DNA from: Bacteroidaceae bacterium
Lineage (GTDB): Bacteria; Bacteroidota; Bacteroidia; Bacteroidales; Bacteroidaceae
Assembly: GCA_017645655.1 (NCBI GenBank)
Contig: JAGCNZ010000009.1
Coordinates: 1 to 46,941, forward strand
Reading direction: 5' to 3'
Length of the DNA: 46,941 nt
In this document: piece after piece, positions 6,620-42,184 of the stretch
How positions within the stretch are numbered: position 1 is the first letter of the stretch
How the letters are laid out: each line of letters begins with the position of its first letter
Program-made: the position numbers and the translations under genes
The notes under the pieces: model-generated
What the model was told of the DNA's origin: nothing
Seen by the model: the letters and a program-made list of their open reading frames with translations, nothing else
Databases searched by the model: none

Positions 6620-6713
6620 CCACGTGATAAATTGATTTTACCCACGTGATATTTTATTTTTAACACGTGATAATTTCAATTTACCCACGTTATAATTTCG
6701 TTTTACCCACGCG
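6620..6713 (+). repeat. Intergenic 22-bp CACGTG array, copy 1
   Basis: CACGTG or variants start at 6621, 6643, 6664, 6686 and 6708 (steps 22, 21, 22, 22). Units have the form CCCACGTGATAATTT followed by an ATTTTA tail. The array lies between two converging genes. The rest of the 317-bp gap (6490-6806) holds the terminator and about 90 bp with no recognisable feature. Confidence 0.9.
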
Positions 6714-6806
6714 AAGTTTTCTGGCGCCCCTCGCTATGTCTGCTGCTGACGTTTGTGTCGTGGGCGACGACCCCCTTTCTGCAAATGCTTTCGAGCCTGT
6801 TTGGGC

Positions 6807-8495
6807 TTAGCCCTTTTCAGTTTTGCGAATGAGGAAATTCCCGATGTTTGCTTTCTTCAAACTCTTCGAAAGGCTTCTCCTTTCTGATTTCGTCATCTTG
6901 CCTTCAATGGTAAGATGGTCGATGTGGAACTGAGAAAGCCATTCCGGCAGCAAGACTTTGTCCGCATAATTAAGGCCTAAACGCTTGATGTGTTGTTCAT
7001 TGTCCAGCGTTTCTGGCTGTGTCTCAGAGTCTTGCTTCTTGCTTGTGACGCATAGATAACTAATATCGGACTCTTGGTTGAAATAGATACTAAGGCCTTC
7101 TATATGGCTTATCTTGGCAAGCACTTTCAGCAAATCTTCGTTACTCGGCACCTTGCCATCGATATAGATGTAGTCGAAATTGATTTTGTCGAACCATTCG
7201 GGCAGCACGATGCCGTCGGTGAAGTGGAGTTTAAGGCTTTTGATGTGCGGAAGTTGGGCAAGCATCTCGGGCACCTCCTTGACCTTGAGGTCTATACTTT
7301 CCTCGCTTTTCTTCTGCAAGTCGGAGAGCAAGTCTTCGTCTTTATCTGCCTTGCGCAACAGCCAACCTATCTTTGGAGTAAGCATATTGGCAAGCGTGTC
7401 TTCCTCTGCTCCGATGAATCCCGCCATGAGTTCCATGGGTGTCTCGCTCATGAGGGTGCCCTTTTCAGGGTCTGTCATGCGGTATTTGAGGCCGACATAC
7501 ACGCGCTGGGAGGGCATTTCCTTTTGGTGGTGAACGCTGTCGGGCGTCTGTCCGTTCTCGTCTGGGAAGAGTCTCAGCAGCCAGCCGTTCAGGAAAGTAG
7601 GCTTCTCATTACTGCATCCGCCGCCTCTCAACCTGTCTGTCTGCCCTTTTTTGACAATGTCTTGCCAGAACTTCTGATTAGGCTGTCCTTTTGCTGCAAG
7701 GACAAACTGCTCAAGTATCGGTTCCAAACTTCTTGTCCATTCAGCAAGTCCGTATGCGGCAAGCTTGCGTGTCTTGTCGAGAACGCGTTGCCAGTCGGCT
7801 GGTGTTCCCTTGAGTGTGATGGTGGGAATGCCGCAAGCTAAATAATAGACCATGTATTCGAAGTACGACTTCACGCTCTCCATCAGCGTAATTTGCGAGG
7901 CGATGCGCTCGGCAGGCAAGGTCGTCGAGAAGTCCGCAGTTAAGGTTTGCGCGATGTCATCCTTCGTGTATTTCTCAATTTGGGTTGCAAAGTCGCCAAT
8001 AAGTTTGTCGTAATCGGCTTGTCCCGAAAGCAGGTCTTGCTTGGTTTCTATCGCCAAGTCCATCTTTCCAGCATGGCTCACCAACTTCGGACGCACTTCT
8101 TCGCTGTGCGCATCAACGTATCTGGCAAAGCCTTGACTGATGAGCAACCAGATCATATCCGGGGAGAGCGTAAGGGATTTGTGCGTCTTGTACGCTCTCA
8201 CAACACATTGAAAGAACGCATCCTTCTCGGCGCCCTTGAGGTTATTTGCGCCCGCGAAGCTTGATGCCACGATGTTGTAAGCACCATTAAGGATGTTCTT
8301 GTCTTCGTTAAGAATGGCTTTAGCCATCTTTTCGCCGTCAGAAAGGTGCCGATACTTCTCTTCAATAGGCTCTATACCCTCGTCAACAACGAAGGTAATG
8401 CTCCCATCGGATTGGCGGATGACCTGCTTATTGTCAGCATGTCCCGTTAGAGAAATGAAGACAAGGCAAAGGGCGATGATGGACTTTCCTGCCAT
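6807..8495 (-). CDS. DUF4419 secreted protein, likely independent start inside the rpiB frame
   Basis: ATG 8495 is preceded by AGGAAGCTTAAC, one of the few Shine-Dalgarno-like sequences in the window, and opens a typical signal peptide (MAGKSIIALCLVFISLTGHA). The resulting 562-aa protein would carry DUF4419 in about residues 35-330, then a helical region and a C-terminus with leucine-rich segments (IKSLKLHFTDGIVLPEWFDK; IKRLGLNYADKVLLPEWLSQ). DUF4419 has no settled function that I know. I list it separately because export requires an N-terminal signal, which the fused form would bury at residue 146. Whether translation starts here, at 8930, or at both cannot be decided from sequence alone. 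Confidence 0.45.
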   Translation of the reverse strand: MAGKSIIALCLVFISLTGHADNKQVIRQSDGSITFVVDEGIEPIEEKYRHLSDGEKMAKAILNEDKNILNGAYNIVASSFAGANNLKGAEKDAFFQCVVRAYKTHKSLTLSPDMIWLLISQGFARYVDAHSEEVRPKLVSHAGKMDLAIETKQDLLSGQADYDKLIGDFATQIEKYTKDDIAQTLTADFSTTLPAERIASQITLMESVKSYFEYMVYYLACGIPTITLKGTPADWQRVLDKTRKLAAYGLAEWTRSLEPILEQFVLAAKGQPNQKFWQDIVKKGQTDRLRGGGCSNEKPTFLNGWLLRLFPDENGQTPDSVHHQKEMPSQRVYVGLKYRMTDPEKGTLMSETPMELMAGFIGAEEDTLANMLTPKIGWLLRKADKDEDLLSDLQKKSEESIDLKVKEVPEMLAQLPHIKSLKLHFTDGIVLPEWFDKINFDYIYIDGKVPSNEDLLKVLAKISHIEGLSIYFNQESDISYLCVTSKKQDSETQPETLDNEQHIKRLGLNYADKVLLPEWLSQFHIDHLTIEGKMTKSERRSLSKSLKKANIGNFLIRKTEKG

Positions 8496-8930
8496 GTTAA
8501 GCTTCCTGAACGGAATCTTTGCGATGCGACGCTCGTGACGTCCGCCTTCGAAGGGTGTCTGCAGGTATTCGTTCATGATGGCATCGGCCTCCTCATTCGT
8601 GATAAAACGGCCAGGCATCACAAGCACGTTGGCATCATTATGCTGCCGGGCGAGATGAGCAATCTCGGGTTTCCAGCAAAGTGCGGCACGAATGCTTTGA
8701 TGCTTGTTGAGCGTCATGTTGATGCCTTCCCCGCTACCGCAGATGGCAATGCCTTTCTCGCATTCTCCCGCCTCCATGCCTTTTGCCAAAGCATGCCCGA
8801 AGTCCGGATAATCGCAACTCTCTTCGTTATAAGTTCCGTAGTCGTGAAACTCGATACCTTTCTCGTCAAGATACTCCTTTACATGCTGCTTGAGAGCATA
8901 ACCAGCATGATCGCTTGCCAATCCTATCAT
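6807..8930 (-). CDS. rpiB: RpiB-type sugar-phosphate isomerase read through into a DUF4419 protein
   Basis: The true start is ATG 8930, which overlaps the tkt stop (ATGA). Residues 1-145 are ribose-5-phosphate isomerase B: ASDHAGYALK carries the Asp-His pair, AICGSGEGINMT the catalytic Cys, and QHNDANVLVMPGRF the second His. RpiB interconverts ribose-5-P and ribulose-5-P, next to transketolase in the non-oxidative pentose phosphate pathway. Instead of stopping after RIAKIPFRKLN the frame continues from residue 146 with a signal-peptide-like segment, then DUF4419 (LSPDMIWLLISQGFARYVDA; RLRGGGCSNEKPTFLNGW), then a leucine-rich C-terminus. An out-of-frame TAA spans the junction (CTTAACATG). A cytoplasmic enzyme joined to an exported protein is odd; a lost stop, a sequencing error or dual starts are all possible. 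Confidence 0.85.
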   Translation of the reverse strand: MIGLASDHAGYALKQHVKEYLDEKGIEFHDYGTYNEESCDYPDFGHALAKGMEAGECEKGIAICGSGEGINMTLNKHQSIRAALCWKPEIAHLARQHNDANVLVMPGRFITNEEADAIMNEYLQTPFEGGRHERRIAKIPFRKLNMAGKSIIALCLVFISLTGHADNKQVIRQSDGSITFVVDEGIEPIEEKYRHLSDGEKMAKAILNEDKNILNGAYNIVASSFAGANNLKGAEKDAFFQCVVRAYKTHKSLTLSPDMIWLLISQGFARYVDAHSEEVRPKLVSHAGKMDLAIETKQDLLSGQADYDKLIGDFATQIEKYTKDDIAQTLTADFSTTLPAERIASQITLMESVKSYFEYMVYYLACGIPTITLKGTPADWQRVLDKTRKLAAYGLAEWTRSLEPILEQFVLAAKGQPNQKFWQDIVKKGQTDRLRGGGCSNEKPTFLNGWLLRLFPDENGQTPDSVHHQKEMPSQRVYVGLKYRMTDPEKGTLMSETPMELMAGFIGAEEDTLANMLTPKIGWLLRKADKDEDLLSDLQKKSEESIDLKVKEVPEMLAQLPHIKSLKLHFTDGIVLPEWFDKINFDYIYIDGKVPSNEDLLKVLAKISHIEGLSIYFNQESDISYLCVTSKKQDSETQPETLDNEQHIKRLGLNYADKVLLPEWLSQFHIDHLTIEGKMTKSERRSLSKSLKKANIGNFLIRKTEKG

Positions 8931-10957
8931 GATAACAATTTCTTTGCTTGCTTGTAAACATTCTCTGCTGTGAAGCCGAATTTCTCGTCGAGCACTTTGT
9001 AGGGAGCTGAGAAACCGAAGCTGCCGAGGCCCCATATCGTGCTGCTGGGATGTGCGCCTACAAGGAAACCTTGCAGGTTGACTGGCAAACCGGCTGTGAG
9101 ACCAAAGACTTTGCTGCCAATTGGGAAGAGTTCGCGTTGGTACTCAAGCGGTTGCTCGCGGAAGAGACCCTCGCTTGGAGCACTTACCACGCGCACTTTG
9201 TAGCCGTCTTTGCGCAGCAATCTTGCCCCGGCAATGAGGGTGCTGACTTCGGAACCATTGCCGACGAGGATGATGTCGAACTGCTCGTCGCTCTCGGCAG
9301 CAATGTAAGCACCTTTAGCTGTCCCTTCATAGTTGGTTCCTTCGGGAAGGTCTTCTATCGTCTGACGACTGAGAATGAGGGCAGAAGGCGTTTGTGTGTT
9401 CTCCATTGCCAACTTCCAACAACAGGTTGTAGCCTTTCCGTCGGCAGGTCGAAGCACGAGGATAGAGTTCCTGCCGCTGTGGTTCTTCATCTTTTCCATC
9501 AGGCGAATCTGAGCCTCTTGCTCGACAGGTTCGTGTGTTGGACCGTCTTCGCCAACGCGGAAAGCGTCGTGACTCCATACGAACTTAACAGGTACTTGCA
9601 TCAAGGCAGCCATTCGGATTGCGGGCTTCATGTAGTCGGAGAAGACGAAGAATGTGCCGCAAGCTGCAATGACACCTCCGTGGAGCATCATACCAATGCA
9701 GCAGCATGCCATCGTAAGCTCTGCAACGCCTGCCTGAAGGAAGCCTCCGCCGGGGTTGTTGCGAGAGATGACAGTCGCACCTCCCTTGATGAAGCCGTCT
9801 GTCTTGTCGGAATTGCAGAGGTCGGCACTGCTGACAATCATGTTGGGAACCTGCTTTGCGAGCAGAGAAAGGCAGGTGCTCGAGGCATTTCGAGTGGCAT
9901 CGTTTGGCTTTTGTTCGATGCTTTCCCAGTCAATCTTCGGCAGTTTGCCTGCAAACCAGTCTTTGAGCTGAGCGGCTTTCTCTGTGTTCTGAGCAGCCCA
10001 CGCCTCTTCCTCTTTATGACGTACGGCAGCAATTTCCTCCAGCTCTTTGAGTCGTGCTTCATAAAGATCCTGCACTTCGGGGAAGATGACGAATGGTTCG
10101 TCAGGATTGCCTCCGAGGTTGGTGACAGTATTACGATAGGCATCGCCTCCAAGGGGCGCGCCGTGTGTCTTCGTGCTGCGTTCATAGCTACTTCCGTCGG
10201 CCTGCAGAGCGCCTTTTCCCATGATGCAATGTCCGATGATGAGCGTCGGTTTGCCTTCGACTGCTTTTGCCTTCTCGATAGCTTCACGAATCTGTGGAAC
10301 ATCGTTTCCATCAATCTCAATTACCTCCCAACCACATGCACGATACCTCATGGCTGTGTCTTCGCAGGTCACAACTGATGTTTCGGTAGAAAGCTGGATG
10401 TCGTTAGCGTCGTAGAACATAATGAGGTTGTCGAGCCCCAGATTGCCTGCGATTCGTGCTGCACCTTGACTGATTTCTTCCTGAATGCCGCCATCGCTGA
10501 TATAAGTGTAGATGGTTTCCTTCTTGAAGGTTGGGTTGCCTGTCTTTGCATAGAGGAACTTGGCTGCGATTGCTGCTCCGACGGCATAGGTGTGACCTTG
10601 TCCAAGCGGTCCGCTTGAGTTCTCGATGCCTCGCTCATAACATACTTCCGGATGGCCTGGAGTAGGGGAGCCCCACTGACGAAGCTGCTGAAGTTCTTCG
10701 AGTGTGAATTTGCCGATGAGCGTCAGTTCTGCATAAAGCATCGGCGACATGTGCCCAGGGTCAAGAAAGAAGCGGTCTCTTCCTTCCCACTTCGGGTTTT
10801 TGGGGTCAAACTGAAGGTATTCGCTGTAGAGGACATTGATGAAGTCGGCGCCACCCATAGCACCGCCAGGGTGTCCGCTCTTTGCCTTCTCCACCATTGC
10901 AGCTGCCAGTATGCGGATGTTGTCGGCAGCGCGGTTCATGAGAGATGTCTTGTTCAT
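8927..10957 (-). CDS. tkt: Transketolase
   Basis: A 676-aa protein of normal length for the family. It transfers two-carbon ketol units between sugar phosphates with thiamine diphosphate in the cytoplasm. Seen in the sequence: KSGHPGGAMGGADF near the N-terminus, GIENSSGPLGQG, the ThDP/metal-binding region ISDGGIQEEISQ followed by YDANDIQLS (the Bacteroidales form of GDG...EG...N), and the pyrimidine-binding segment DGPTHEPVEQ. The stop overlaps the rpiB ATG, so the two pentose-phosphate genes are translationally coupled. A consensus promoter lies at 10988-11019, giving a leader of about 25 nt. Confidence 0.95.
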   Translation of the reverse strand: MNKTSLMNRAADNIRILAAAMVEKAKSGHPGGAMGGADFINVLYSEYLQFDPKNPKWEGRDRFFLDPGHMSPMLYAELTLIGKFTLEELQQLRQWGSPTPGHPEVCYERGIENSSGPLGQGHTYAVGAAIAAKFLYAKTGNPTFKKETIYTYISDGGIQEEISQGAARIAGNLGLDNLIMFYDANDIQLSTETSVVTCEDTAMRYRACGWEVIEIDGNDVPQIREAIEKAKAVEGKPTLIIGHCIMGKGALQADGSSYERSTKTHGAPLGGDAYRNTVTNLGGNPDEPFVIFPEVQDLYEARLKELEEIAAVRHKEEEAWAAQNTEKAAQLKDWFAGKLPKIDWESIEQKPNDATRNASSTCLSLLAKQVPNMIVSSADLCNSDKTDGFIKGGATVISRNNPGGGFLQAGVAELTMACCCIGMMLHGGVIAACGTFFVFSDYMKPAIRMAALMQVPVKFVWSHDAFRVGEDGPTHEPVEQEAQIRLMEKMKNHSGRNSILVLRPADGKATTCCWKLAMENTQTPSALILSRQTIEDLPEGTNYEGTAKGAYIAAESDEQFDIILVGNGSEVSTLIAGARLLRKDGYKVRVVSAPSEGLFREQPLEYQRELFPIGSKVFGLTAGLPVNLQGFLVGAHPSSTIWGLGSFGFSAPYKVLDEKFGFTAENVYKQAKKLLS

Positions 10958-10987
10958 AATATGTGGGGCTTGTTCTTTTGACTCGAC

Positions 10988-11019
10988 AAAGGTACAAAAT
11001 AAATCCCGACTCTACAAGA
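10988..11019 (-). promoter_or_regulatory. Promoter of tkt-rpiB
   Basis: On the minus strand CTTG (11019-11016), 20 bp, then TACCTTTG (10995-10988). AAGAAAATAA (11017-11026) and TTATTTTCTT (11031-11040) form a perfect 10-bp inverted repeat across the upstream element, a candidate operator. Confidence 0.75.
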
Positions 11020-11123
11020 AAATAAGAATTTATTTTCTTCCAACGTCGAAGATATTTTGAGGTTTCAAATGCTTCGATAAATTTAGCGAGAGGATACGAT
11101 GGCAGGTGTGATTCAACACACAC

Positions 11124-11217
11124 CACGCATAGTTGCTCAACTATACACGTGACGTTTGGCATCTTCACGTGTGACGTTTGCCATCGCGACACGTGATGTT
11201 TGATGGCGTCACTCGAG
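11124..11217. repeat. Intergenic 22-bp CACGTG array, variant copy
   Basis: CACGCA at 11124, then CACGTG at 11146, 11166 and 11190, then CTCGAG at 11212. The grid is 22 bp, with the third unit displaced by 2 bp (steps 22, 20, 24, 22). Spacers (GACGTTTGGCATC, GACGTTTGCCATC) differ from the AT-rich ones of copies 1, 4, 6 and 7. The array lies between the tkt promoter and the small ORF at 11275. No other feature was seen in 11041-11123 or 11218-11274. Confidence 0.75.
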
Positions 11218-11274
11218 ACCTTATTCAGAGGGACTTCGGAAGGAGGTTGCGATTTGATGCTGCGAAAGGGATTA

Positions 11275-11451
11275 TCAGGAATCTTGGGGGACGGAATAGG
11301 TACCGCCAATCCATTCCGTGAAGGGCTCTTCTTGCTGGAGAAAATGCCAGTTGAGAAAGTGACCACCTTCGTCTGTCTCTACTACGACAGGCCCTTGCTG
11401 GAGGGTTCCATCGGTGAGCAGGATGTTGTGATAAGCCTTTTTCGAATTCAA
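11275..11451 (-). CDS. Small conserved-looking protein (58 aa) after the DUF4296 gene
   Basis: A short minus-strand frame from TTG 11451 to tandem stops TGA-TAA encodes MNSKKAYHNILLTDG, then TLQQGPVVVETDEGGHF, then EEPFTEWIGGTYSV. Composition, codon use and alternation of hydrophobic residues look like a real small beta-rich protein. The L-x-DG-x-x-x-x-GP-V-V-V-E pattern resembles the N-terminal strand pair of amidohydrolases, but the catalytic barrel is absent. It begins 23 bp after the DUF4296 stop and would be the last gene of the ileS operon. There is no ATG; the start could also be ATT or another upstream codon. I believe similar short ORFs occur beside DUF4296 in other Bacteroidales, but could not check. 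Confidence 0.5.
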   Translation of the reverse strand: MNSKKAYHNILLTDGTLQQGPVVVETDEGGHFLNWHFLQQEEPFTEWIGGTYSVPQDS

Positions 11452-11474
11452 AATATAAGATATTAATTCTGAAT

Positions 11475-12443
11475 TTAGCGATTTCGGCGGCGGTTGGTGC
11501 GCTGAGGAATGCCCTTCTGCGGACGAATGGGATTTGGATTCTCCTTCGTGACGTGTATCTTGCGCTCTCTTGGCTGGCTTTCACGCACTTGTTGAGGTGT
11601 GAGACGCTCGCTCTTCTCCTTGGGCAACGTGTCGATAGAGATGGTGTCGACAAGCACTGGAGTCTCCTTGATGATGGGTTTCTCCTTGTGCATCCTGATG
11701 AGTTGTATCTCGCTGACAAGCAAAGGTTTGGGCTTGTCTGCATCGTTGACCATGGGCAGGTAGATGAAGCCGGAAATGGAACTGAGGTTTAGCGAATCAA
11801 GACCTCGGCCAGGATAGAAACGCAACTCATTCTTCGGACTGTTGCGAAGCAAGTCAGTCACACATGTGGAAGTGTCCGTCTCATAGTAAAAGCTGAGCAA
11901 AGCAATAGCTTCGTTGTTCATGGAACGGCTGACGAACTGTGTCTTGAAGCGCCAGATAAAGCTGTCTCCTGGTCTGAAAGTGGAATCGGCTTTCATCTGA
12001 AAAGAATAGACACATTGAACAGGATTGGCAACAACGCATGCAAAGTCTTTTCCGAGCCAGATGTTCGCTGTGTCGCCTTCGTTGGTGAGGCTTGCAAACT
12101 TGTCTTGATTGGCTGTTTCCTCGAGTCCCATGCGCTCTGCCTGTGCTTGCACGCGCGTAACTACATTTTCATATATATGTGTGAACTCCTCAGCTCGACC
12201 GCTCCAATACACCATCGAGGAGTCAAACTCTGCTTCTGTGATGCGATGCTTCTTGAAGACAGCCTGAATGTATTTGTAGCGAACGACGTCTATGTTCTCG
12301 CCTTGCGTCTCTGCCATCCCCTGCGCTAAGTGGTAGTCGACAAGGACATCCGTCATCTTCTTCTCGTTCAGTATGCCGCTTGGTCGTGACGGAGAGCAAG
12401 CATAAAGAAGAAACAAGGGGGCAAAGAGCAGGCGAAATCTCAT
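11475..12443 (-). CDS. DUF4296 domain lipoprotein
   Basis: A 322-aa protein starting at ATG 12443, which overlaps the lspA stop (ATGA). The N-terminus MRFRLLFAPLFLLYACSPS is a lipoprotein signal with a lipobox LYAC. That fits the gene directly before it, lspA, the enzyme that cleaves such signals. DUF4296 covers about residues 25-110 (MTDVLVDYHLAQGMA; FDSSMVYWSGRAEEFTHIYE). A middle beta domain and a basic, proline-rich tail (RPQKGIPQRTNRRRNR) follow. Function unknown; probably attached to the periplasmic face of a membrane. Upstream in-frame codons to 12581 lie within lspA and are a shadow. Confidence 0.85.
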   Translation of the reverse strand: MRFRLLFAPLFLLYACSPSRPSGILNEKKMTDVLVDYHLAQGMAETQGENIDVVRYKYIQAVFKKHRITEAEFDSSMVYWSGRAEEFTHIYENVVTRVQAQAERMGLEETANQDKFASLTNEGDTANIWLGKDFACVVANPVQCVYSFQMKADSTFRPGDSFIWRFKTQFVSRSMNNEAIALLSFYYETDTSTCVTDLLRNSPKNELRFYPGRGLDSLNLSSISGFIYLPMVNDADKPKPLLVSEIQLIRMHKEKPIIKETPVLVDTISIDTLPKEKSERLTPQQVRESQPRERKIHVTKENPNPIRPQKGIPQRTNRRRNR

Positions 12444-13045
12444 CGGAACATTTTCTGATTGAAGAAGAGGATGAGGGCAATGACTCCGCATGAAATGCTG
12501 GCATCGGCAAAGTTGAAGATGGGGCTGAAGAAGATGAAATGCTCGCCACCAATGTAGGGCAGACTTGCAGGCCAATCCCATTCAACAAGAGGGAAATAGA
12601 ACATGTCGACCACACGTCCGAGCATCATTTGCCCGTAGCCTGTGCCCCAAGGAACGAACTCTGCTTTCATGGGGACGGGCGGGTTGTTGAATATCATACC
12701 GTAGAACATGCAGTCGAAGATGTTGCCTGCAGCTCCGGCAGTTATCATCGTCATGCAAACAAGATAGCCCCAGCCGATGCCTCGCTTTATGCATCGACAG
12801 ATGTACCAAATGAGGAAAGCAACTGCTGTGATGCGGAATGAAGTGAGGAACCATTTGGGAATCACTTCCAAGCCAAACGCCATTCCGTCGTTTTCCGTGA
12901 AGAGAATCTGGAACCACTCTGTCACCTTGATGCTCTGGTGAAGGTACATGCCTGTCTTGACCGCCACCTTGATGATTTGGTCAACAGCGACGATACCTAT
13001 TCCGAGAGCAACGGAGGTTAACGCTTGTGCTTGCTTGCGGGTCAT
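12440..13045 (-). CDS. lspA: Lipoprotein signal peptidase
   Basis: A 201-aa inner-membrane aspartyl protease that removes the signal peptide from prolipoproteins. Four hydrophobic segments are visible (about 10-28, 65-85, 93-110, 178-196). The catalytic aspartates fit D111 in GNIFD and D181 in FNFADASI. ENDGMAFG matches the conserved N-x-G-x-x-F loop. Compared with proteobacterial LspA it carries an extra periplasmic insertion of about 30 residues (about 118-165), usual in Bacteroidales. It begins directly after the traR/dksA stop with no gap and overlaps the next gene, a lipoprotein that is one of its likely substrates. Confidence 0.95.
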   Translation of the reverse strand: MTRKQAQALTSVALGIGIVAVDQIIKVAVKTGMYLHQSIKVTEWFQILFTENDGMAFGLEVIPKWFLTSFRITAVAFLIWYICRCIKRGIGWGYLVCMTMITAGAAGNIFDCMFYGMIFNNPPVPMKAEFVPWGTGYGQMMLGRVVDMFYFPLVEWDWPASLPYIGGEHFIFFSPIFNFADASISCGVIALILFFNQKMFR

Positions 13046-13432: not shown

Positions 13433-13446
13433 ATCTTTTTCCTTTA

Positions 13447-17020: not shown

Positions 17021-17110
17021 TTATGTTGGTAAACTTAACACGTTATGTTGGCAATCATAACACGTTAAATTTGGCAACTTAACACGTTATGTTTGCCAAC
17101 TAGGCGTGCT
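17021..17110 (-). repeat. Intergenic 22-bp array, ACACGTT variant
   Basis: CACGTT starts at 17039, 17061 and 17083 (steps 22, 22). Spacers are of the ATGTTGGCAATCATA and ATGTTTGCCAACTA type, with degenerate half-units on both sides. It lies 3' of the porin gene, 4 bp after its stop. Confidence 0.8.
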
Positions 17111-21346: not shown

Positions 21347-21370
21347 GGTCGTTAATGAAATAAGTTTAGT

Positions 21371-21453
21371 AGTTAGAGGTAGTCAGAAGTAGATATGTCG
21401 CTTTCAGCGACGAAGTTAGAGGACAATACTTTTGGTTGTCGAAAACGATTGTC
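21371..21453 (-). promoter_or_regulatory. Structured leader of the antiporter gene
   Basis: GTCGCT (21397-21402) and AGCGAC (21406-21411) form a tight hairpin with a TTC loop, flanked by two copies of AGTTAGAGG (21371-21379 and 21414-21422). GACAAT (21422-21427) and ATTGTC (21448-21453) form a second inverted repeat. A purine-rich, low-complexity tract (minus strand) lies between these and the promoter. Role unknown; may be a dispersed repeat rather than a regulator. Confidence 0.35.
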
Positions 21454-21505
21454 TTCTATCTCCTTCTGTCTTCTTTTATCTTCATCTGTCTCCTTGTTTG
21501 ATGCG

Positions 21506-21574: not shown

Positions 21575-21619
21575 TGGTGAAAAGAGAACCGAAGATTATT
21601 AAACGAAGCATTATATTAA

Positions 21620-21702
21620 GACCACGAATTACACGAATTACACGAATTTTAATGGTTTTTCAAGGACGTAGTCAATTCGTGTAATTCGTGTAATTCGTGG
21701 TC
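21620..21702. repeat. Perfect 29-bp inverted repeat with internal tandem repeats
   Basis: GACCACGAATTACACGAATT starts the left arm (21620-21648) and its exact reverse complement is the right arm (21674-21702), with a 25-bp spacer. Each arm is itself three 9-bp units of the CACGAATTA type. In RNA it would form a 29-bp hairpin ending 33 nt before the start codon at 21736. Similar CACGAATTA repeats are, as far as I recall, widespread in intergenic DNA of several phyla. Confidence 0.9.
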
Positions 21703-21735
21703 AATAAAAAGAGTGTTTATCTGTTTCATAAAGGT

Positions 21736-22245: not shown

Positions 22246-22290
22246 TTTCGCAGTCGTTTTTGCTCACTTGACCTGATGCGTTTCCCAACG

Positions 22291-22430
22291 CCCCACGTTA
22301 TGTTTTCATTTTACCCACGTGATAATTTGATTTTACCCACGTGATATTTTATTTTTAACACGTGATAATTTGATTTTACCCACGTGATAATTTCAATTTA
22401 CCCACGTTAAGTTTTTCGCCTCCCCACATT
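22291..22430 (+). repeat. Intergenic 22-bp CACGTG array, longest copy
   Basis: Seven motif positions: 22294 (CACGTT), 22316, 22338, 22359, 22381 (CACGTG), 22403 (CACGTT) and 22425 (CACATT); steps 22, 22, 21, 22, 22, 22. The unit after the 21-bp step begins ACACGTG rather than CCCACGTG. It lies between converging genes. In the remaining 22431-22589 I see only the palindrome TTCCGCGCGGAA (22539-22550). Confidence 0.92.
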
Positions 22431-22589
22431 AAGTGTTCCAATGCTACATGTTGTGCATGGCATTCAATCATTGTAAAATGGTAGTGTGGACTGCTGCCTA
22501 TTCTACATTTATTGCGCCATATGCGAAAAATGAAGGTTTTCCGCGCGGAAGCGAGAAAGCCGTAAAATGGCAAAGACCTTGGAGTGCCT

Positions 22590-29750: not shown

Positions 29751-29783
29751 AAGCGCATAATATTAATAAGGTGTATTTTATGA

Positions 29784-29814
29784 CAAAGATAAAGTATTTT
29801 TCCGACCTGACAAA
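29784..29814 (-). promoter_or_regulatory. Promoter of the 29750-22590 operon
   Basis: On the minus strand TTTG (29814-29811), 19 bp, TATCTTTG (29791-29784): both elements perfect. The nearest downstream start codon is 34 bp away. Confidence 0.8.
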
Positions 29815-30453
29815 GAAAAGCCGTAAAACTTTCAGCTTTTTTTGCATTTTCTCGTGTTGAAACCCTACTTTTTAAGGTAACCATCTTGTTCCAGATTCGT
29901 TTTGACAAAATGTATGAATTATGTTGAAATTTCTAACAATCTGTATTTTTCAAAGTCGCTGAGAATCGCATGAAAACGCTCAACTTGTGTCGAGGCTCAA
30001 AAGAACGCCAGTTTTTTGAGTTTTCGTAAAGTGTTGATACTGTTTGGTTTACAAAATAAGGCCTTCAAATAGGGCAGAAAACAGGTTCGATTTAGGACAA
30101 TAAAGTAGCCGATTAGACCAGTTTTTATGCGGATTTTAACGTGCCGAAATGCCAAACTTAACGTGTTAAGTTGCCAAAGTTGACGTGTTAAGTTTGAAAA
30201 CTTCACGTGAGAAGTTGAGAAACTTCACGTGATGAGTCTGTTTTCTTGCCACGTTTTCACCAAAACGCTCCCGTTTTGCATCAAAATCCGAGCTGTCAAA
30301 AAGAAAGCAAAATGACTCGACATGTTGACAATCTGTTTGTTTTGACTTTGGTCATTTTGTGCTTTAACAGAAATAATCAGATGAGTCGTTAGGGCTGTTT
30401 TTCTGTCTTGCGTTCTTTTTTTTATTATTTTCTTCATTCTTCATTCCTCATTC
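29815..30453. other. Long AT-rich intergenic region, divergent promoters at both ends
   Basis: No convincing ORF on either strand. It contains CTCAAAA...TTTTTTGAG (about 29995-30020, a terminator-like hairpin followed by TTTT on the plus strand), a 22-bp array (30138-30231), an inverted repeat CAAAATGAC (30308-30316) / GTCATTTTG (30351-30359), and a T/C-rich TTCATTC-type low-complexity tract just before the pfk promoter. Whether a small RNA is encoded in 29830-30020 cannot be decided here. Confidence 0.5.
30138..30231 (-). repeat. Intergenic 22-bp array, variant with AAGTTGCCAAA spacers
   Basis: AACGTG at 30138 and 30160, GACGTG at 30182, CACGTG at 30204 and 30226: four steps of exactly 22 bp. 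Spacers such as TTAAGTTGCCAAAG resemble those at 17021-17110 in reverse orientation. It lies between two divergent transcription units. Confidence 0.88.
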
Positions 30454-30484
30454 TTTATTCTTTCATTTTTTCTTTGTACCTTTG
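30454..30484 (+). promoter_or_regulatory. Promoter of the phosphofructokinase gene
   Basis: TACCTTTG at 30477-30484 is a perfect downstream element; the upstream element is a weaker TTTA at 30454-30457, 19 bp away. Leader of about 55 nt. Confidence 0.65.
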
Positions 30485-30544
30485 CAGTCGAAATGTAATA
30501 ACATATATAAATAAAGGTATAGAAAAAAAGAAAGGTAAAGAATC

Positions 30545-33065: not shown

Positions 33066-33066
33066 C

Positions 33067-34773: not shown

Positions 34774-34793
34774 AATGGTTACGGGGTTATGGT

Positions 34794-35573: not shown

Positions 35574-35621
35574 GACTAACCTTGAAAACTATTCAAACAC
35601 TCAGTTATGCAAATTCCTTTG

Positions 35622-35629
35622 CAAAGATA
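35622..35629 (-). promoter_or_regulatory. Downstream promoter element of the channel-transporter unit
   Basis: Minus-strand TATCTTTG (35629-35622), a perfect TAnnTTTG box; no clear TTTG/TTG element was seen 19-20 bp upstream. Confidence 0.5.
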
Positions 35630-35732
35630 AGAAAAAACTATGAACTATGGAGTAAAATCCATGAAAAAAGTTTCGTAAATGGCAGAACTGCGAATCGAGA
35701 TGCCCGACTCTGCGGGGTGTGTTTCGAAACAT

Positions 35733-35869
35733 CACGTAGGTAAAATGAAATTGTCACGTGGGTAAAATGAAATTATCACGTGTAATATTTCAAATATTAC
35801 GTGGGTAAAATGAATTTCTCCCGTGGGTAAATTCCAAACTTAACGTGGAGTGTTTGCGGGCATGCCGTG
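35733..35869 (-). repeat. Intergenic 22-bp CACGTG array (reverse orientation)
   Basis: Motif starts at 35733 (CACGTA), 35755, 35777 (CACGTG), 35798 (TACGTG), 35820 (CCCGTG), 35842 (AACGTG) and 35864 (GCCGTG); steps 22, 22, 21, 22, 22, 22. Spacers GGTAAAATGAAATT are the reverse complement of those at 6620 and 22291. The 21-bp step spans GTAATATTTCAAATATTAC, which is a near-perfect palindrome. Rest of 35574-35927 has only the promoter box. Confidence 0.92.
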
Positions 35870-35927
35870 GAGTGTCGCCGGATTAGGCGAGCGTGAAAAA
35901 ATGCAGCGATGCGTAATGCTCGGTGAA

Positions 35928-36389
35928 TCAGCGTGTTTTCTGCTCTATCTTAATGAAGTTCCTTAGGTCTTCTATCTTGTAGAATCCTCCGACGTGGATG
36001 ATGATGTATCTGCATCCGTCGAATTCAATCACCGCATCTTTGTAGCCGTCTTCGTACTCCCAAAGTCGGATGGCGATGGCTTTATTCAGTGCCATCTTCA
36101 TGAAGAAATTGCTGGAAATGTCGAGTACCTTGCTCGGCCTGAGTTTCTTGTAACCCTTTATCTGCTGGTATTCCTCGATGAAATGCCTGACGAGATAGAC
36201 CGAATCGTCGAAGTCGAAATTCTCCGAAACCTTTATAGTCGGGCTTTTCTGGTAGGAGCCCAACAGGTTCTCATACACTATCGCCGGATTGTTCCTGTAT
36301 CTTTTCAGCAGATTTTCCAGGTCTTGATTCTGTGCCCAACCCGATACGACTGCGAAGAGTGCTAATATAGATAATGTATGGCGGCTCAT
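35928..36389 (-). CDS. Secreted protein of unknown function (153 aa)
   Basis: Signal peptide [20 protein letters not shown], then a mature part of about 133 residues with a helical start (DLENLLKRYRNNPAIVYEN) and a beta segment (DGCRYIIIHVGGFYKIEDL). The ATG overlaps the uvrA stop (ATGA), so it is co-translated with uvrA, although its export predicts a function unrelated to DNA repair. I do not recognise the domain. It is the last gene of the uvrA unit and is followed by the CACGTG array. Confidence 0.7.
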   Translation of the reverse strand: MSRHTLSILALFAVVSGWAQNQDLENLLKRYRNNPAIVYENLLGSYQKSPTIKVSENFDFDDSVYLVRHFIEEYQQIKGYKKLRPSKVLDISSNFFMKMALNKAIAIRLWEYEDGYKDAVIEFDGCRYIIIHVGGFYKIEDLRNFIKIEQKTR

Positions 36390-39190
36390 TTCGTGTGCTC
36401 TTCTTTAGGAGTTCCGCAGTAGAGAATCTCGCCGCCATTGCGTCCGCCGCCAGGTCCCATCTCGATAATCCAGTCGGCAGAGCGGATGATGTCGGGATTG
36501 TGCTCAATCACGATAATCGTGTTGCCCTTGTCCACCAGCCTGCCAAGCACGTCGAGCAGGACGCGGATGTCTTCGAAATGCAGTCCCGTGGTTGGTTCGT
36601 CGAGGATGTAGAGCGTGCGTCCCGTATCTCTTCGAGCCAGTTCGGCAGCCAGTTTGACGCGCTGACTCTCCCCTCCGGAAAGGGTGTTGCTGGGCTGGCC
36701 GAGTTTGATGTAGCCCAATCCGACTTCCTGCAAGACTTTAATCTTACTGAGTATCGTGGGCTGATTCTGAAAGAACTCGACTGCCTGATTGATAGTCATG
36801 TCCAGCACATCCGCGATGCTCTTGCCTCGGAAACGCACCTCGAGCGTCTCTCTGTTGTATCGCTTTCCACGACATTCCTCGCAAGGCACAAAGACATCGG
36901 GCAGGAAGTTCATTTCGATGGTGCGGTAGCCGTTGCCGCCACACGTTTCGCATCGGCCGCCTTTCACGTTGAAGGAGAACCTGCCGGGCTTATATCCTCG
37001 GATGCGAGCCTCGGGAAGTTCGACGAACAGTTTGCGGATGTCGGTGAAGACGTCTGTGTAAGTGGCTGGATTAGACCGGGGTGTGCGTCCGAGAGGGCTC
37101 TGGTCAACGTCGATTATCTTGTCGATATTCTCCAGTCCCTCAATGGCTTTGTAGGGCAGAGGCTCAGCCAGCGAGCGATAGAAATGCTTGCTCAGGATGG
37201 GATATAGCGTTTCGCTGATGAGCGAACTCTTGCCGCTTCCGCTCACGCCGGTGATGCAAATCAGTTTGCCAAGCGGGATGCTGACATCGATATTCTTCAG
37301 GTTGTGTCCACTCGCACCCTTGATGGTCAGCGAGAGGCCATTGCCTTTTCGGTACTCAACTGGTGGGTCGATGGTCAATTCGTTCTTCAGATATTTGCTC
37401 GTCAGCGTGTCCTTCTTCAGCATTTCCTTGTATGTTCCCTGAAAGACGACCTCGCCTCCGCGACGACCTGCCAAGGGGCCAATGTCAACGATGTAGTCGG
37501 CGTTTTCCATCATCTCGCGGTCATGCTCCACGACAAGCACGGTGTTGCCAGCGTCTCGTAGTGCCTGGAGGGAATGGATGAGCTTGATGTTGTCGCGCTG
37601 ATGCAGGCCGATGCTGGGTTCGTCGAGTATGTAGAGGACGCCCACAAGCTGGCTGCCAATCTGTGTTGCCAGGCGAATGCGCTGACTCTCGCCGCCTGAA
37701 AGACTCAATGAGGGCCGGGATAGGGACAGGTAGTCGAGGCCTACATCGAGCAGGAACCTCAGCCTGGTCTTGATTTCCTTAATGATTTCCTGCGCTATAG
37801 CCAGCTGTCTCTTGCTGATTCTTCTGTCCAAGCCATCCAGCCATTCGTAGAGCTGCCCCAGTTCCAGGGCAGATACTTCGGCGATATTCTTGCCGTCGAG
37901 CAGGAAATGAAGCGACTCTTTCCTCAGTCTTTGCCCTTTACATTCAGGACACTCACACGTGCCGCTGAACTGCTCGGCCCATCTCTGAGCCGCCACACCA
38001 ACGTCGGCATCCTTCATCTGCTCAATGTACTTGACCAATCCGTCGAACTCCGTATAGACATCATTCGTGGTCCTCGTCTTGCTGGCGGCAATGCGAAGCC
38101 GTTCCGGACTGCCCTCCAATATCTCGTCTATCGCTTCTTCCGGCACTTCGCCAAGTGGCGTGTCGGCCGTGCATCCATAGGATTCGAGCACAGTTTCCAC
38201 TTGCCAGAATATCATGGCCTGCTTTGCTTTGCCAAGCGGAGCGAAGCCTCCGTCACGAAGAGAAAGGGTAGGGTCAGGAATTACCTTGTTTCGGTCGATG
38301 ATATGTACGAAGCCCAATCCCTTGCAACGCGGGCAAGCACCCTGAGGACTGTTGAAGGAGAAGTCATGCGGAGCAGGGTCGTGATAGGAGATACCACTGG
38401 TTGGACACATCAGGTGCTTGCTGTAGTGGCGCACTTCGTTAGTGTCCATGTTGCAGACAAGCATTTCGCCTTCGCCTTGCTTCATGGCGATGGCAACACT
38501 TTGCACCAGTCGCTTGTCGTCTCTTTCCTGCACTTGAAGGCGGTCAATCACAACCTCGATGCTGTGGTTGCGATAGCGGTCGAGCTTCATATCTGGCACG
38601 AGTTCCTGCATTTCGCCGTCCACGCGAGCATAGAGATAACCCTTGCGGCGGATGTTCTCAAAGAGTTCTTTGTAATGTCCTTTGCGGTTCTTGACAAGCG
38701 GAGCCAGCAGGATGATGCGTTTTCCAAGGTATTCATTCAAGAGCAGGTCAATGATCTGCTCCTCCGTATAGCGCACCATCTTCTCGCCAGTAACGTAGGA
38801 ATAGGCTTCGGCAGTCCTTGCGTAAAGCAATCTGAGGAAGTCATAAATCTCGGTAGTCGTGCCGACGGTGCTTCTGGGGTTCTTGTTGGTGGTCTTCTGC
38901 TCGATGCTTATGACGGGACTCAGCCCGGTTATCTTATCAACATCGGGTCGTTCCATTCCTCCCAAGAAGTTGCGTGCATAGGCGCTGAACGTTTCTATAT
39001 ATCGGCGCTGGCCTTCTGCGTAGATAGTATCGAAAGCAAGCGACGACTTTCCGCTACCGCTGAGACCGGTGAAGACAGTAAGGCTGCCTCGCGGAATCTC
39101 TACGTCCACATTCTTCAGGTTATGGACGCGAGCACCCTCCACGCATATCTTCTGCTCACTCTTCTGTGGTAGTGCCTTCGTTCTCGCCAT
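36386..39190 (-). CDS. uvrA: Excinuclease ABC subunit A
   Basis: A 934-aa DNA-damage sensor of nucleotide excision repair. Two ABC ATPase modules: Walker [17 protein letters not shown] near the N-terminus and [16 protein letters not shown] in the second half, signature [16 protein letters not shown] and [16 protein letters not shown]. Zinc fingers: [20 protein letters not shown] and [11 protein letters not shown] ... [10 protein letters not shown]. Overlaps the upstream type-IX protein gene by 35 bp and the next gene by 4 bp. Length and motif order are normal. Confidence 0.97.
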
Positions 39191-39905
39191 TGTTATAGCC
39201 TGAAATGACGTTGATGGCTTTCTTTATGTTATAGTTGATGCCGTCTGCTCCTTTAGCCGATACATTGAGGAAGTAAACGCCATCAGGCACGACTTTGCCA
39301 TTTACCTTGCCGTCCCAGCCACCGTGAATGTCGTCCCACGAATAGAGTTTTTTGCCCCAACGGTTGAAGACGACAGCATGGAACTTGACTATGCCTTTGT
39401 ATCCATCCTTGGGTTTGAGCACATCGTTGCGGTCGTCGTCGTTCGGCGAGATGCCGTTCGGAAACTCCAGACTGCTTTCGGTCAAGGTGAAAGTAATGTA
39501 TTTGGCGTCCTCTCCTTCTTGCGGGAACTCATAATCCTCCACGCTTCCATCCTCACCGTAGAAGATGGCTTTGAGCTGTACGGTGTAGCTGCCGCTTTCG
39601 TTCACCTCCCATTCGAAGGTCTCGTCGTTGCGGCGCACAAGGATGTTCCCAGGGTCGTTTTGGTTCCACAGCGTCCATTCGTACCAAACCTGGCTCTTGA
39701 AACCATCCGGAATAGTAGGGTTGGCAGTAAAGACAACGCGGAAGGGCATGCTGAGTGTCTGTCCGTTCACGTCGCCCGTCACTTCCTGTCCATTTTCGTC
39801 CGTTGTATAGTAAGTGCCGACAGGGTCAACTGTTGGGTTCTGTGCCCATGCCCAAAGAGGCAAAAGAGCAAGGAAAAAGAATAAAATGCGCTTCATCTCG
39901 TTCAT
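39156..39905 (-). CDS. Secreted protein with type IX type-B (gliding-motility) C-terminal domain
   Basis: A 249-aa protein. ATG 39905 ([10 protein letters not shown]) or ATG 39896 (MKRILFF) starts a signal peptide ending LWAWAQN. The C-terminal about 90 residues ([52 protein letters not shown]) match the type B sorting domain of type IX secretion, described in gliding-motility-associated proteins. The N-terminal part contains beta-sandwich sequence ([15 protein letters not shown]) without enzyme motifs. It is probably exported through the type IX machinery. The C-terminus overlaps the uvrA start by 35 bp. Confidence 0.85.
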
Positions 39906-39913
39906 TATTTCTG

Positions 39914-39975
39914 CAAAAGTAAAAAAAAACTGTGAACTATGAACCATGTATTATGAACTTTTTTGTACTTTTGCA
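39914..39975. promoter_or_regulatory. Divergent promoter pair with 10-bp inverted repeat
   Basis: TGCAAAAGTA (39912-39921) and TACTTTTGCA (39966-39975) are exact inverse copies; each contains a perfect TAnnTTTG box (minus at 39921-39914, plus at 39966-39973). The start codons lie only about 6-9 bp beyond the boxes (39905/39896 and 39979), so transcripts would have almost no leader. Upstream elements are not evident. Confidence 0.55.
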
Positions 39976-39978
39976 TAG

Positions 39979-41349
39979 ATGAAACGTATTTTAATACTTC
40001 TTTATTGCCTTTTGCCGACGATTTTGTTCGCTCAAGGCATACTTTCGACTCTCGGCGATATGCATTCCGTCGTGAAGGGGGAAACGTGGGAAAGCGTTGC
40101 TGCCAGTCATGGTATTTCCGTTGTTGCCCTGAAAGCGGCTAATCCCGATGTGAAGAAAGCAAAGCTTAAGAAAGGCACGTTGCTGATTATTCCCCAGGGC
40201 TCCCTGAATCCTTCGAATGCAAATTCGAATGTTGAGACAGCGGCAGGTAATATAGGCTCTCCTTACGTGAGGGTAGGGATGGCTCAGAATGCTCCAGCAC
40301 TAATCCGCACTTCTATCTCCGACCTGAAGGTTGGTGTGTTGCTTCCTCTTGCTGACAAGCGAATGGTTGAGTTCTATAGAGGTTTGCTGATGGCGGCGGA
40401 CAGCGTTCGCAAGAGCGGCGTCAATCTCGACATCCATGCTTGGGATTGTGGTGTGACGACGGCTCAAGTCGAATCTCTGCTACCAAACTTGCAAGGGCTC
40501 GATGTTCTCTTTGGACCAGCTTCTGCCACACAGATTCCGCAGGTTGCCGAAGCTTGCAAGGAGCAGGGTATTCGCATGGTGCTGCCGTTCTATAGCGGTC
40601 AGACGTTGCTGGACTATCCGCTTGTCTATAACGTGACAGCCCCGAGTACATATCTCTACGAGGCAGCGTTGGCGAAGATGATGAGCTTCTATCCGGACAT
40701 GAACTACGTGATTGTTCGCTGTGGCAATGCCGACACCAAAGGAAAGAACTTTACCGATGCCGTCGTCCATGCTTTGGCGCAGAAGTCCGCCACTCCGAGG
40801 ACGCTCGATTTGAACGGCGACGATTTTGCCTATGAGTCTGCTTTCAACCAGTTCCGAGGCAACGTGATTGTCCTGGACAACAGCGATGCCGCTTCCCTGA
40901 ACAGCCTTCTGTCCCGCCTGAAGGCCTTCCGGGCCAAGCATTCCCAGTACCGCTTCTCTTTGCTTGGCTTTGCTGATTGGCAGGACGAGACGGACAGGCT
41001 TCTGGATGATTTCTTTGCCTTCGACACCTATATCGTAAGCCCATATTATTATAACGTGTTGGACGACAGGATTAGAAACTTTGAGAGTGCATATTGGAGC
41101 AACTTCCGAACGTCGGTCATTCAGAGCAATCCTCGCTTTGCCGCCCTTGGCTTCGACCTTGGCTGCTACTTCCTGACGGGCTTGGGCAGCCTGGGCGACA
41201 CGTTCGACCAGATGCAGGGCAGCATCCGGCAGCAGCCCTATCAGAGTTGGTTCCGGTTCGAGCGCGGAGCATCCGGCTTGAGCTTTTTCAACAACTTCGT
41301 GCAGTTCATACACTACACGCCAGAGAACAGGGTAGAGCTTATTCGATGA
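39979..41349 (+). CDS. LysM and periplasmic-binding-like protein
   Basis: A 456-aa protein; signal peptide about residues 1-19 (ending LFAQ). A LysM domain follows at about 28-75 (MHSVVKGETWESVAASHGIS; ANPDVKKAKLKKGTLLIIP), which binds peptidoglycan. From about residue 110 the sequence is LivJ/type 1 periplasmic-binding-like (LKVGVLLPLADKRMVEFYRG; LDVLFGPASATQIPQVAEAC). No ABC transporter genes are adjacent, so it may be a structural or sensory protein rather than a transport receptor. Its stop overlaps the start of the next gene. Confidence 0.82.
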   Translation: MKRILILLYCLLPTILFAQGILSTLGDMHSVVKGETWESVAASHGISVVALKAANPDVKKAKLKKGTLLIIPQGSLNPSNANSNVETAAGNIGSPYVRVGMAQNAPALIRTSISDLKVGVLLPLADKRMVEFYRGLLMAADSVRKSGVNLDIHAWDCGVTTAQVESLLPNLQGLDVLFGPASATQIPQVAEACKEQGIRMVLPFYSGQTLLDYPLVYNVTAPSTYLYEAALAKMMSFYPDMNYVIVRCGNADTKGKNFTDAVVHALAQKSATPRTLDLNGDDFAYESAFNQFRGNVIVLDNSDAASLNSLLSRLKAFRAKHSQYRFSLLGFADWQDETDRLLDDFFAFDTYIVSPYYYNVLDDRIRNFESAYWSNFRTSVIQSNPRFAALGFDLGCYFLTGLGSLGDTFDQMQGSIRQQPYQSWFRFERGASGLSFFNNFVQFIHYTPENRVELIR

Positions 41350-42053
41350 AACGACATTATATATCATATATCGTATGCCTGCTCCTGTCCACCCACGTGA
41401 CGAACGCTCAGGTGGGTGAGGCGCGTACCGACCTCGCCCTGGGTGCCAGCGCAGGCTGTGTGCTCAACCAAGTATCCTTCAAGCCATCCATCAGGCAGAC
41501 CATGAAGCTTGGTCCCACCATCGGCTTTACGGCACGATACACCTGCGAGAAGTACTTCAGCCTGGTATGTGCTTTTCAGGGAGAACTCAACTATACTCAG
41601 GCTGGTTGGAAGGAGAAGACGGAGACTGGCGACAATGGTTATCAGCGAACGGTACATTACGTCCAACTGCCTTTGCTTGCCAATCTCGGTTACGGACGGG
41701 AGCGAGGCGGCGTGAAAGGCTTCCTTGTGGTAGGTCCCCAACTGGGCTTCTGCATCGGCGAGACCATGAAAACGACTGGCGACGGCTCGGGCTACGTCCC
41801 TTATCAGCTTGATGGACTTCCCAATCAGCACGACCTGAAAGTGCAGAGGAAGTTCGAGTACGGCATAACGGGAGGTCTTGGAATGGACGTCAGCACCAAG
41901 AAAGGTCACCATTTCATCATCGAGGGCCGCTACTTCTATGGCTTGAGCGACATGTTCAAGAATTCGAAGAAAGACCCGTTTGCCCGTAGTGCAAACAGCA
42001 CCATCACAGCCAAAGTGTCCTACCTCTTCGACGTCAAGAAGACGAAGTTCTAG
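41346..42053 (+). CDS. Outer-membrane beta-barrel protein (PorT-like)
   Basis: A 235-aa protein from ATG 41346, which overlaps the upstream TGA (ATGA). Signal peptide MKRHYISYIVCLLLSTHVTN-AQ. The mature part has alternating strands (LALGASAGCVLNQVSF; TIGFTARYTCEKYFSLVC; YVQLPLLANLGYG), the pattern of the eight-strand OMP_b-brl_2 / PorT family. In type IX-bearing bacteria PorT assists secretion, but similar barrels have other roles, so the name is family-level only. Co-transcription with the LysM protein suggests a shared envelope function. Confidence 0.78.
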   Translation: MKRHYISYIVCLLLSTHVTNAQVGEARTDLALGASAGCVLNQVSFKPSIRQTMKLGPTIGFTARYTCEKYFSLVCAFQGELNYTQAGWKEKTETGDNGYQRTVHYVQLPLLANLGYGRERGGVKGFLVVGPQLGFCIGETMKTTGDGSGYVPYQLDGLPNQHDLKVQRKFEYGITGGLGMDVSTKKGHHFIIEGRYFYGLSDMFKNSKKDPFARSANSTITAKVSYLFDVKKTKF

Positions 42054-42069
42054 TCTACTTTTCAAACTG

Positions 42070-42184
42070 CGCGTGGAGTGTTTGCAAACTTAACGTGGGT
42101 AAAATGAAATTATAACGTGGAATATTTGAAATATCACGTGGGTAAAATGGATTTATCCCGTGGGTAAATTTCAAACTTAACGTG
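42070..42184 (-). repeat. Intergenic 22-bp CACGTG array (reverse orientation, converging genes)
   Basis: Motif starts at 42070 (CGCGTG), 42092 and 42114 (AACGTG), 42135 (CACGTG), 42157 (CCCGTG) and 42179 (AACGTG); steps 22, 22, 21, 22, 22. The 21-bp step again spans a palindrome-like AATATTTGAAATAT. It fills the whole gap between the barrel gene and dnaG. Confidence 0.92.

Follow-up and report, generated by a model that had tools for sequence, protein, structure and literature searches.

What are the short tandem arrays that fill so many of the spaces between genes in this Bacteroidaceae genome, and what could hold them to so regular a period? The window, that is the whole stretch of 46,941 nucleotides analysed here (contig JAGCNZ010000009.1 of assembly GCA_017645655.1), carries seven intergenic arrays in which the hexamer CACGTG or a close variant recurs on a 22-bp grid. 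These arrays belong to a family that is spread through the genome, lies between genes, is directional in two of its classes, and, in the regions compared, occupies positions shared between species, with a different class of unit at many of the shared positions. The explanation that we tentatively favour, at somewhat less than an even chance, is that they are chromosomal iteron-like arrays bound by one protein or protein family, which serve as boundary or organising sites between transcription units and have spread by copying.

The window's own genome, designated G000, is a draft of 2.74 Mb in 130 contigs and is 84% complete. The number of CACGTG hexamers in the window is ordinary (18 against 11.67 expected, reached by 5 of 100 shuffles). 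Their spacing is another matter: nine adjacent pairs are separated by 20-24 bp, whereas 500 shuffles give 0.01 such pairs on average and never more than 1. Throughout the genome there are 390 CACGTG-N16-CACGTG places and a single one for the reversed control. An earlier note on this DNA had proposed a genome-wide intergenic family and had named the absence of arrays from the rest of the genome as a reason to abandon it; with 390 places against one, that reason falls away and the family stands. The 387-kb sample of G000 that was used for spacing and cluster counts contains 75 CACGTG pairs at 22 bp, 23 at 21, 4 at 24 and 3 at 20, while the next palindromic hexamer after CACGTG has 5 pairs at 22 bp; there are 42 clusters with at least two exact CACGTG, two of them being parts of one array. 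Placement was assessed with gene calls from a home-made codon-model caller and a strict array test (lag 22, low-complexity repeats dropped, gaps of at least 100 bp). By this test 47 of the 115 sampled gaps of G000 bear an array, and each of nine control lags gives 0-2.

Arrays usually consist of three to seven head-to-tail copies of a unit, and the units fall into classes, the labels of which follow our own pattern rules. Class 1 has a central 21-bp unit, CACGTGATATTTNAAATATT(A/C), common to 35 anchor hits in 34 arrays of G000. It is flanked on both sides, in one direction, by 22-bp units of the CACGTGATAAWTTSATTTTACC type, and the outer units are weaker, with a GTTTG...AAAC middle. The information per block is 1.65 bits in the centre, a score that is partly due to construction because this block was the search anchor, and falls outwards through 1.28/1.55, 0.75/0.93, 0.36/0.50 and about 0.15 to nothing, so that the shared core in G000 is about 110 bp long and conservation drops on both sides of it. 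No shared leader or tail outside the repeats was present in the 35 anchored hits, information being about zero beyond roughly 110-130 bp of the centre, and the edges of the 34 class-1 arrays show only weak AAAC and GTTT. Class 2, found in the window at 17.0 and 30.1 kb, has a GTTTGGCAA/ACACGTT unit, which is also matched at many places in the congeners G194 and G798. The third kind is a G+C-rich unit of the congeners G810 and G194, roughly GCGGCG(T/A)TGGCAAT(CC/TT)CCGC plus two bases. Forward and reverse units are mixed in none of 25 G+C-rich arrays, 9 of which hold a unit that cannot be assigned, and the two-base linker (GT or AC) tracks direction except at some array ends. The units are quasi-palindromic, and the two main classes, class 1 and the G+C-rich one, are directional.

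Orthologous gaps were compared among the draft genomes G000, G810, G194 and G798, congeners with partly conserved gene order, in two regions (G798 in one), the longer matched stretches being roughly 75-88% identical. Where both gaps are at least 100 bp long, the strict test finds arrays in both members of 18 of 53 pairs, in neither member of 34, and in only one member of a single pair. At the same time, the class of the unit differs in 12 of the 19 classed pairs and agrees in 7 (all genome pairs of a looser set with 25 array-array pairs, of which 6 low-complexity pairs are unclassed). At five loci of contig C11, which make up 8 gap pairs, class 1 in G000 is replaced by the G+C-rich family in G194, in G810 or in both. 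The agreeing pairs are four G+C-rich ones between G194 and G810 and three of class 2, namely G000-G194 at 30.1 kb, G000-G798 at 17.0 kb and one G194-G798 pair. Whole genomes repeat the picture: counts of the G+C-rich pattern are 309 for G810, 334 for G194, 2 each for G000 and G798, and 0 or 1 for each of eleven other congeners, and CACGTG pairs at 22 bp number 44, 36, 390 and 29 in G810, G194, G000 and G798, respectively. Separate point mutations would hardly produce one and the same core, some 110 bp long, in many arrays of G000, and we infer that it was copied.

Several results weigh against functional sites that are kept in place, the first of them from this same comparison and the others from the hairpins discussed further below. 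The gap pairs come from two regions and, being drawn from four genomes, lack independence; the strict definition, too, was adopted second, after a looser one had given a weaker result: 25 pairs with arrays in both, 41 in neither and 31 discordant of 97 (p 0.0008). The strict test without the length limit leaves 7 of 97 pairs discordant (20 both, 70 neither). Some array-free relatives have very short gaps, as at C11:13615, where a 219-bp gap with an array corresponds to gaps of 5 and 90 bp without one, and arrays have also been gained or lost. Such gains and losses, the dispersed copies of a single core in G000 and the very different counts between congeners are what selfish or neutral repeats would show, resembling miniature inverted-repeat transposable elements (MITEs) or repetitive extragenic palindromic (REP) elements, that spread in bursts, are homogenised by gene conversion and have no cellular function. 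Their restriction to intergenic DNA would follow as well, because 22 is not a multiple of 3 and coding DNA would exclude them. The sharing of positions in 18 of 19 array-bearing gap pairs of at least 100 bp, at about 75-88% identity, the lack of a shared flank and the lack of a match to a REP-associated transposase family in G000 speak against such repeats, and we regard this explanation as unlikely, though one to be taken seriously.

The arrays of the window, listed as CACGTG with at most one mismatch, are as follows.
6621-6713, plus strand: array 1, class-1 units (CACGTGATAAWTTSATTTTACC type) in the convergent gap 6490-6806; steps 22, 21, 22, 22, the central 21-bp unit starting at 6643.
11146-11195, no strand: array 2, three CACGTG-ACGTTTGGCAT-type units; CACGTG steps 20, 24.
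17039-17088, no strand: array 3, class 2 (TTAACACGTTATGTTGGCAA), all CACGTT, in a gap flanked by two minus-strand genes, upstream of ileS; steps 22, 22.
22294-22408, plus strand: array 4, class 1, six units in the convergent gap 22246-22589; steps 22, 22, 21, 22, 22, the central 21-bp unit starting at 22338.
30138-30255, no strand: array 5, class 2, in the divergent gap 29751-30544; steps 22, 22, 22, 22, 24.
35733-35847, minus strand: array 6, class 1, between two minus-strand genes; steps 22, 22, 21, 22, 22, the 21-bp step running from 35777 to 35798.
42070-42206, minus strand: array 7, class 1, seven units that take up nearly the whole of the 146-bp convergent gap 42054-42199; steps 22, 22, 21, 22, 22, 22, the 21-bp step running from 42114 to 42135.

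All seven lie on the grid where the earlier note had placed them, and four hold one 21-bp step amid the 22-bp steps. Its suggestion that deviating steps are compensated within an array is borne out at 11.1 kb: the ACGTTTG/ATGTTTG part recurs at 11152, 11174 and 11196, precisely 22 bp apart each time, CACGTG being displaced by two bases, and the steps of 20 and 24 thus mask a continuous grid. The arrays had also been assigned to seven of the nine largest gaps; by our gene calls they occupy six of nine, because the gap at 42.1 kb measures only 146 bp. The division into three convergent, three tandem and one divergent gap depends on an open reading frame (ORF) of 70 amino acids at 11257-11466. 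If it is not real, the gap at 11.1 kb is tandem and the division holds; if it is real, that gap is divergent and the division fails. As to the palindrome, the grid of two helical turns is upheld and would suit a DNA-binding protein, but CACGTG is not the defining feature, because relatives keep the 22-bp grid with other units and the two main classes are directional.

The congeners have the following units at these places. At the gene end at 6.6 kb G810 carries class 1 like G000, and G194 a G+C-rich 22-bp array. The gap orthologous to that of array 2 holds four 22-bp units in G798, that of array 3 holds class 2 in G798 and a G+C-rich array in G810, and those of arrays 5 and 6 hold class-2 arrays in G194 and G810, respectively. 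For array 7 the orthologous gap is of class 2 in G194, and in G810 the G+C-rich family adjoins the homologous dnaG gene end, the other neighbour being unmatched. An orthologous gap for array 4 was looked for in the congeners and not found.

Arrays occur in gaps of every orientation. Under the strict test they stand in 15 of the 22 convergent gaps of G000, in 23 of the 63 tandem ones and in 9 of the 30 divergent ones, and convergent gaps are richer than all others taken together (15/22 against 32/93, Fisher p 0.007). When the test is relaxed to lags 21 and 22 and to gaps from 80 bp upwards, the numbers become 15 of 22, 31 of 76 and 14 of 32, with control-lag pairs hitting 0 to 4 gaps per class. 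The earlier idea of termination or insulation elements is only partly supported: the excess in convergent gaps speaks for it, and the 9 divergent gaps of 30 count against it. No rule was found for orientation. A strand bias, for which a check had been suggested, was not seen, as array direction shows no association with GC skew (p 1.0). Between neighbours there is no rule either (11 the same, 6 different, p 0.33), and a rule of replication strand or gene direction was rejected; class-1 arrays in tandem gaps run along the gene direction in 12 cases and against it in 6, which is no clear link.

The excess in convergent gaps could also be produced by arrays acting in RNA, as bidirectional terminators or strings of 3'-end hairpins that end transcription or protect mRNA ends, and it is here that the remaining adverse results belong. 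On single-strand folding both strands fold strongly, with a mean z of -3.7 for 34 arrays of G000 and -3.1 for 62 others (arrays of at least 60 bases), against -0.84 for 68 non-array gaps, and this counts against binding sites in DNA because a hairpin role would give it. In 91 distinct CACGTG-type interiors pairing reaches 3.23 against 2.54 of 7, the maximum of 1000 partner-shuffles being 2.89, as would be expected of a dyad site for a protein and of a hairpin alike. T-run hairpins resembling terminators stand at 20 of the 45 gene 3' ends in array gaps of G194 and G810 together, against 5 of 50 in other gaps, and 15 of these 20 lie at the array itself. In G000 the numbers are 19 of 67 array-gap 3' ends against 10 of 75 (25/71 against 10/49 in an earlier count). 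Some arrays may thus contain or border terminators. The most hairpin-like array observed lies in another family of the order (L296:17840-17928), where 22-bp units of the form GTGCCA-loop-TGGCAC fill a convergent gap; they vary chiefly in the loop, the stem being mostly kept.

On the other hand, two tests of covariation do not favour the hairpin. Among 67 arrays with a symmetric consensus there are 40 double changes against 33.7 expected, and 17 of the 40 are Watson-Crick against 13.3 expected (p 0.24), which is no clear excess of compensation. The inner arms of the G+C-rich unit stay mismatched, being less complementary than random pairing (1.95 against 2.54 of 4 in 66 units), and complementarity across the linker is 1.68. 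Terminator-like hairpins are lacking at 48 of the 67 array-gap 3' ends of G000, and in G798 they show no clear difference (6 of 9 such ends in array gaps, 7 of 13 in others). Divergent gaps bear arrays too, and a hairpin role alone leaves the fixed 22-bp unit unexplained. Rfam covariance models gave no match in the window at gathering scores. An RNA hairpin as the main explanation, for which folding and pooled pairing speak and the compensation and G+C-rich arm tests do not, was accordingly set aside and is kept as a rival that we consider rather improbable.

Symmetry of the unit itself is clearer when the best axis is sought (6.66 against 5.24 shuffled, of 11 pairs), with p<0.05 in 28 and p<0.01 in 11 of 77 arrays. 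A dyad centred on CACGTG plus the 16-bp spacer was tried and is weak (2.61 against 2.13 of 8 in 92 arrays), we suppose because the real dyad lies one base off. The spacer-dyad, interior-pairing and double-change tests leave out 19 of 111 three-copy loci: 12 titled outside Bacteroidota, one titled 'bacterium', and L133, L134, L139, L144, L145 and L147 by sequence. The last two tests also omit L001-L020 and L212-L241, the double-change test L257-L269 in addition, and in the interior-pairing test G000, with only 4 units, was counted apart.

How far does the grid extend beyond the genus? CACGTG is a local hexamer and not the constant feature; the 22-bp period, sometimes 21 or 23 bp, recurs with other units in the genus and in some genomes of further genera and families. 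The three-copy CACGTG pattern was found in at least 111 stretches, and 67 of the 80 listed matches carry Bacteroidota names. Any CACGTG pair at 22 bp is present in 63 of 399 family genomes (390 places in G000, 36 in the next highest). Samples of 198 genomes each from the order and from the phylum show the three-copy form in 2 and in 1 of them, respectively, and G000 is included both times. Three genomes, G045, G084 and G123, have instead the reversed hexamer GTGCAC at this spacing, at 32, 40 and 49 sites, respectively. In intergenic DNA of 27 family genomes, taken from stretches that had not been selected for arrays, no other lag from 10 to 60 is as strong as 22 (540 windows, with 17 for the median lag), a pool that is uneven because ten of the 27 were picked partly for pattern counts. 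The one-per-genus stretches alone (17 usable, those below 9000 bases skipped) give 63 windows at lag 22 and 165 at lag 21, 104 of the latter from one genome. Among other families of the order (28 genomes) lag 22 again leads, with 260 windows against 129 at lag 23, 111 at lag 21 and a median of 14, and in the rest of the phylum (21 genomes) its lead is weak (72 against a median of 15); the family, order and phylum scans used stretches of at least 5000 bases. At least 8 lag-22 windows are reached by 12 of 27, 5 of 28 and 3 of 21 genomes, respectively, and any such windows in the family set lie in 17 of 171 gaps. The arrays are therefore dense in this genome and those closely related to it, and patchy in others. 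The unit varies from genome to genome and at times from locus to locus within one, and some genomes use 21 or 23 bp.

Known systems resemble these arrays only in part. Plasmid iterons, such as the 22-bp ones of R6K, are head-to-tail directional repeats in few copies, two helical turns apart, and adjoin the rep gene at a replication origin. The likeness lies in the directional direct repeats of about 22 bp, and the difference in dispersal over the chromosome between unrelated genes. Of the 14 genes that neighbour the window arrays, 11 were scanned with NCBIfam or Pfam; no plasmid initiator was matched among these, and three of them match no family. A phage or plasmid element was rejected too: BLAST with the 22.3-kb array gave short weak hits to one plasmid and five phage records (best E at least 2), the class-1 pattern has no match in viral contigs, and no class-1 unit was seen among the 13 matches of the generic three-copy pattern in viral contigs. 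Clustered regularly interspaced short palindromic repeats (CRISPR), which the earlier note had discounted, are indeed a different thing, as here the entire 21-22-bp unit is repeated and there are no unique spacers. REP elements and bacterial interspersed mosaic elements (BIMEs), with their REP-associated tyrosine transposases (RAYTs), form hundreds of species-specific, partly palindromic intergenic elements. The arrays are likewise intergenic and species-specific, but they differ by the fixed head-to-tail grid and in that species have array positions in common but often a different class of unit. The RAYT family Y1_Tnp (PF01797) has no match in G000, an absence that is not final in an 84%-complete draft, and controls match in 5 of 14.

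Sites for ParB, or for a Noc-like relative of it, come to mind because CACGTG is the core of the parS consensus TGTTTCACGTGAAACA. It is only the hexamer that is in common. The parS core TTTCACGTGAAA surrounds 1 of the 210 CACGTG of the G000 sample, the commonest flanks are ACC/ATA and TAT/GGT, and other species retain the grid with other cores, so that we hold this explanation to be very improbable. The sole parS core of the sample is at L028:14421 (TGTTTCACGTGAAAC, contig C11), in the gap beside gidA/mnmG. Separately, L106 (titled Pseudorhodoplanes), L133 and L145, all from genomes that the three-copy scan picked up, have parS-like sites of the TTTCACGTGAAA type at 22-bp steps.

The nearest described element is BrickBuilt, a minisatellite-MITE of Porphyromonas gingivalis, for which dispersed intergenic 23-nt tandem repeats are reported from the same order, Bacteroidales (PMC4596501). 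It has 19 copies in strain ATCC 33277, with a leader, a tail and IS5-like terminal inverted repeats, and earlier 22-, 23- and 41-nt tandem repeats are mentioned for strain W83 without location (PMC4596501). BrickBuilt is alike in being a dispersed intergenic tandem repeat of nearly equal period; the 22-bp arrays differ in occupying 47 of 115 sampled gaps, in having no shared flank and in the change of class at shared loci. Searches of the openly accessible PMC literature, to which this statement is confined, yielded no account of such arrays, BrickBuilt being the sole relevant relative.

Other repeats and an unusual gene were noticed besides the arrays. A second kind of intergenic repeat, with a period of 7 or 14 bp (ATTTACCATTTAATC, AATTCATAATTC), is located at 44650-44729 and at L028:14366-14433; lag 14 is also seen in family genomes. 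It was filtered from the array calls because it passes the loose 21-bp lag test. The stretches 21357-21500 and 21601-21713 match many further places in related genomes, the latter containing an inverted repeat around CACGAATTACACGAATT. At 6807-8930 (minus strand) ribose-5-phosphate isomerase B (residues 2-139) and a DUF4419 domain (237-525) are parts of a single ORF, whereas in G810 and G194 the two parts are matched in separate, slightly overlapping, tandem places.

We return to the iteron-like explanation, that of a DNA-level array of directional, quasi-palindromic 22-bp sites for a protein, which is favoured on balance, with RNA action and selfish spread as its rivals. It could work as follows. 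A putative protein or protein family would bind the units on one face of the DNA, each unit spanning two helical turns, and binding would co-operate along the array. The array so occupied may then work on the DNA itself, setting a boundary between transcription units or serving as an organising site there. The core would be copied from one array into others by gene conversion or by an element that targets arrays, and through this rewriting the sites and the specificity of the protein could change together. A more doubtful reading, which we consider less likely than not, is that a DNA-binding protein and several hundred arrays change together, the positions being kept over many species while the unit is replaced genome-wide. 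Such a co-changing lock-and-key system would exist in this genus and probably in other genera of the order.

What does this mean for these bacteria? About two fifths of the sampled longer gaps of G000 carry an element of which we found no description, and similar elements occur in some of the related genomes. If the arrays bind a protein, they would represent a new layer of chromosome organisation or of insulation between transcription units, comprising several hundred sites in each genome. As selfish elements they would instead be a class of repeat with an unusual habit, that of keeping positions while changing sequence. On either reading, the difference in units at hundreds of places between congeneric species makes the co-evolution of a bacterial protein and its sites directly testable.

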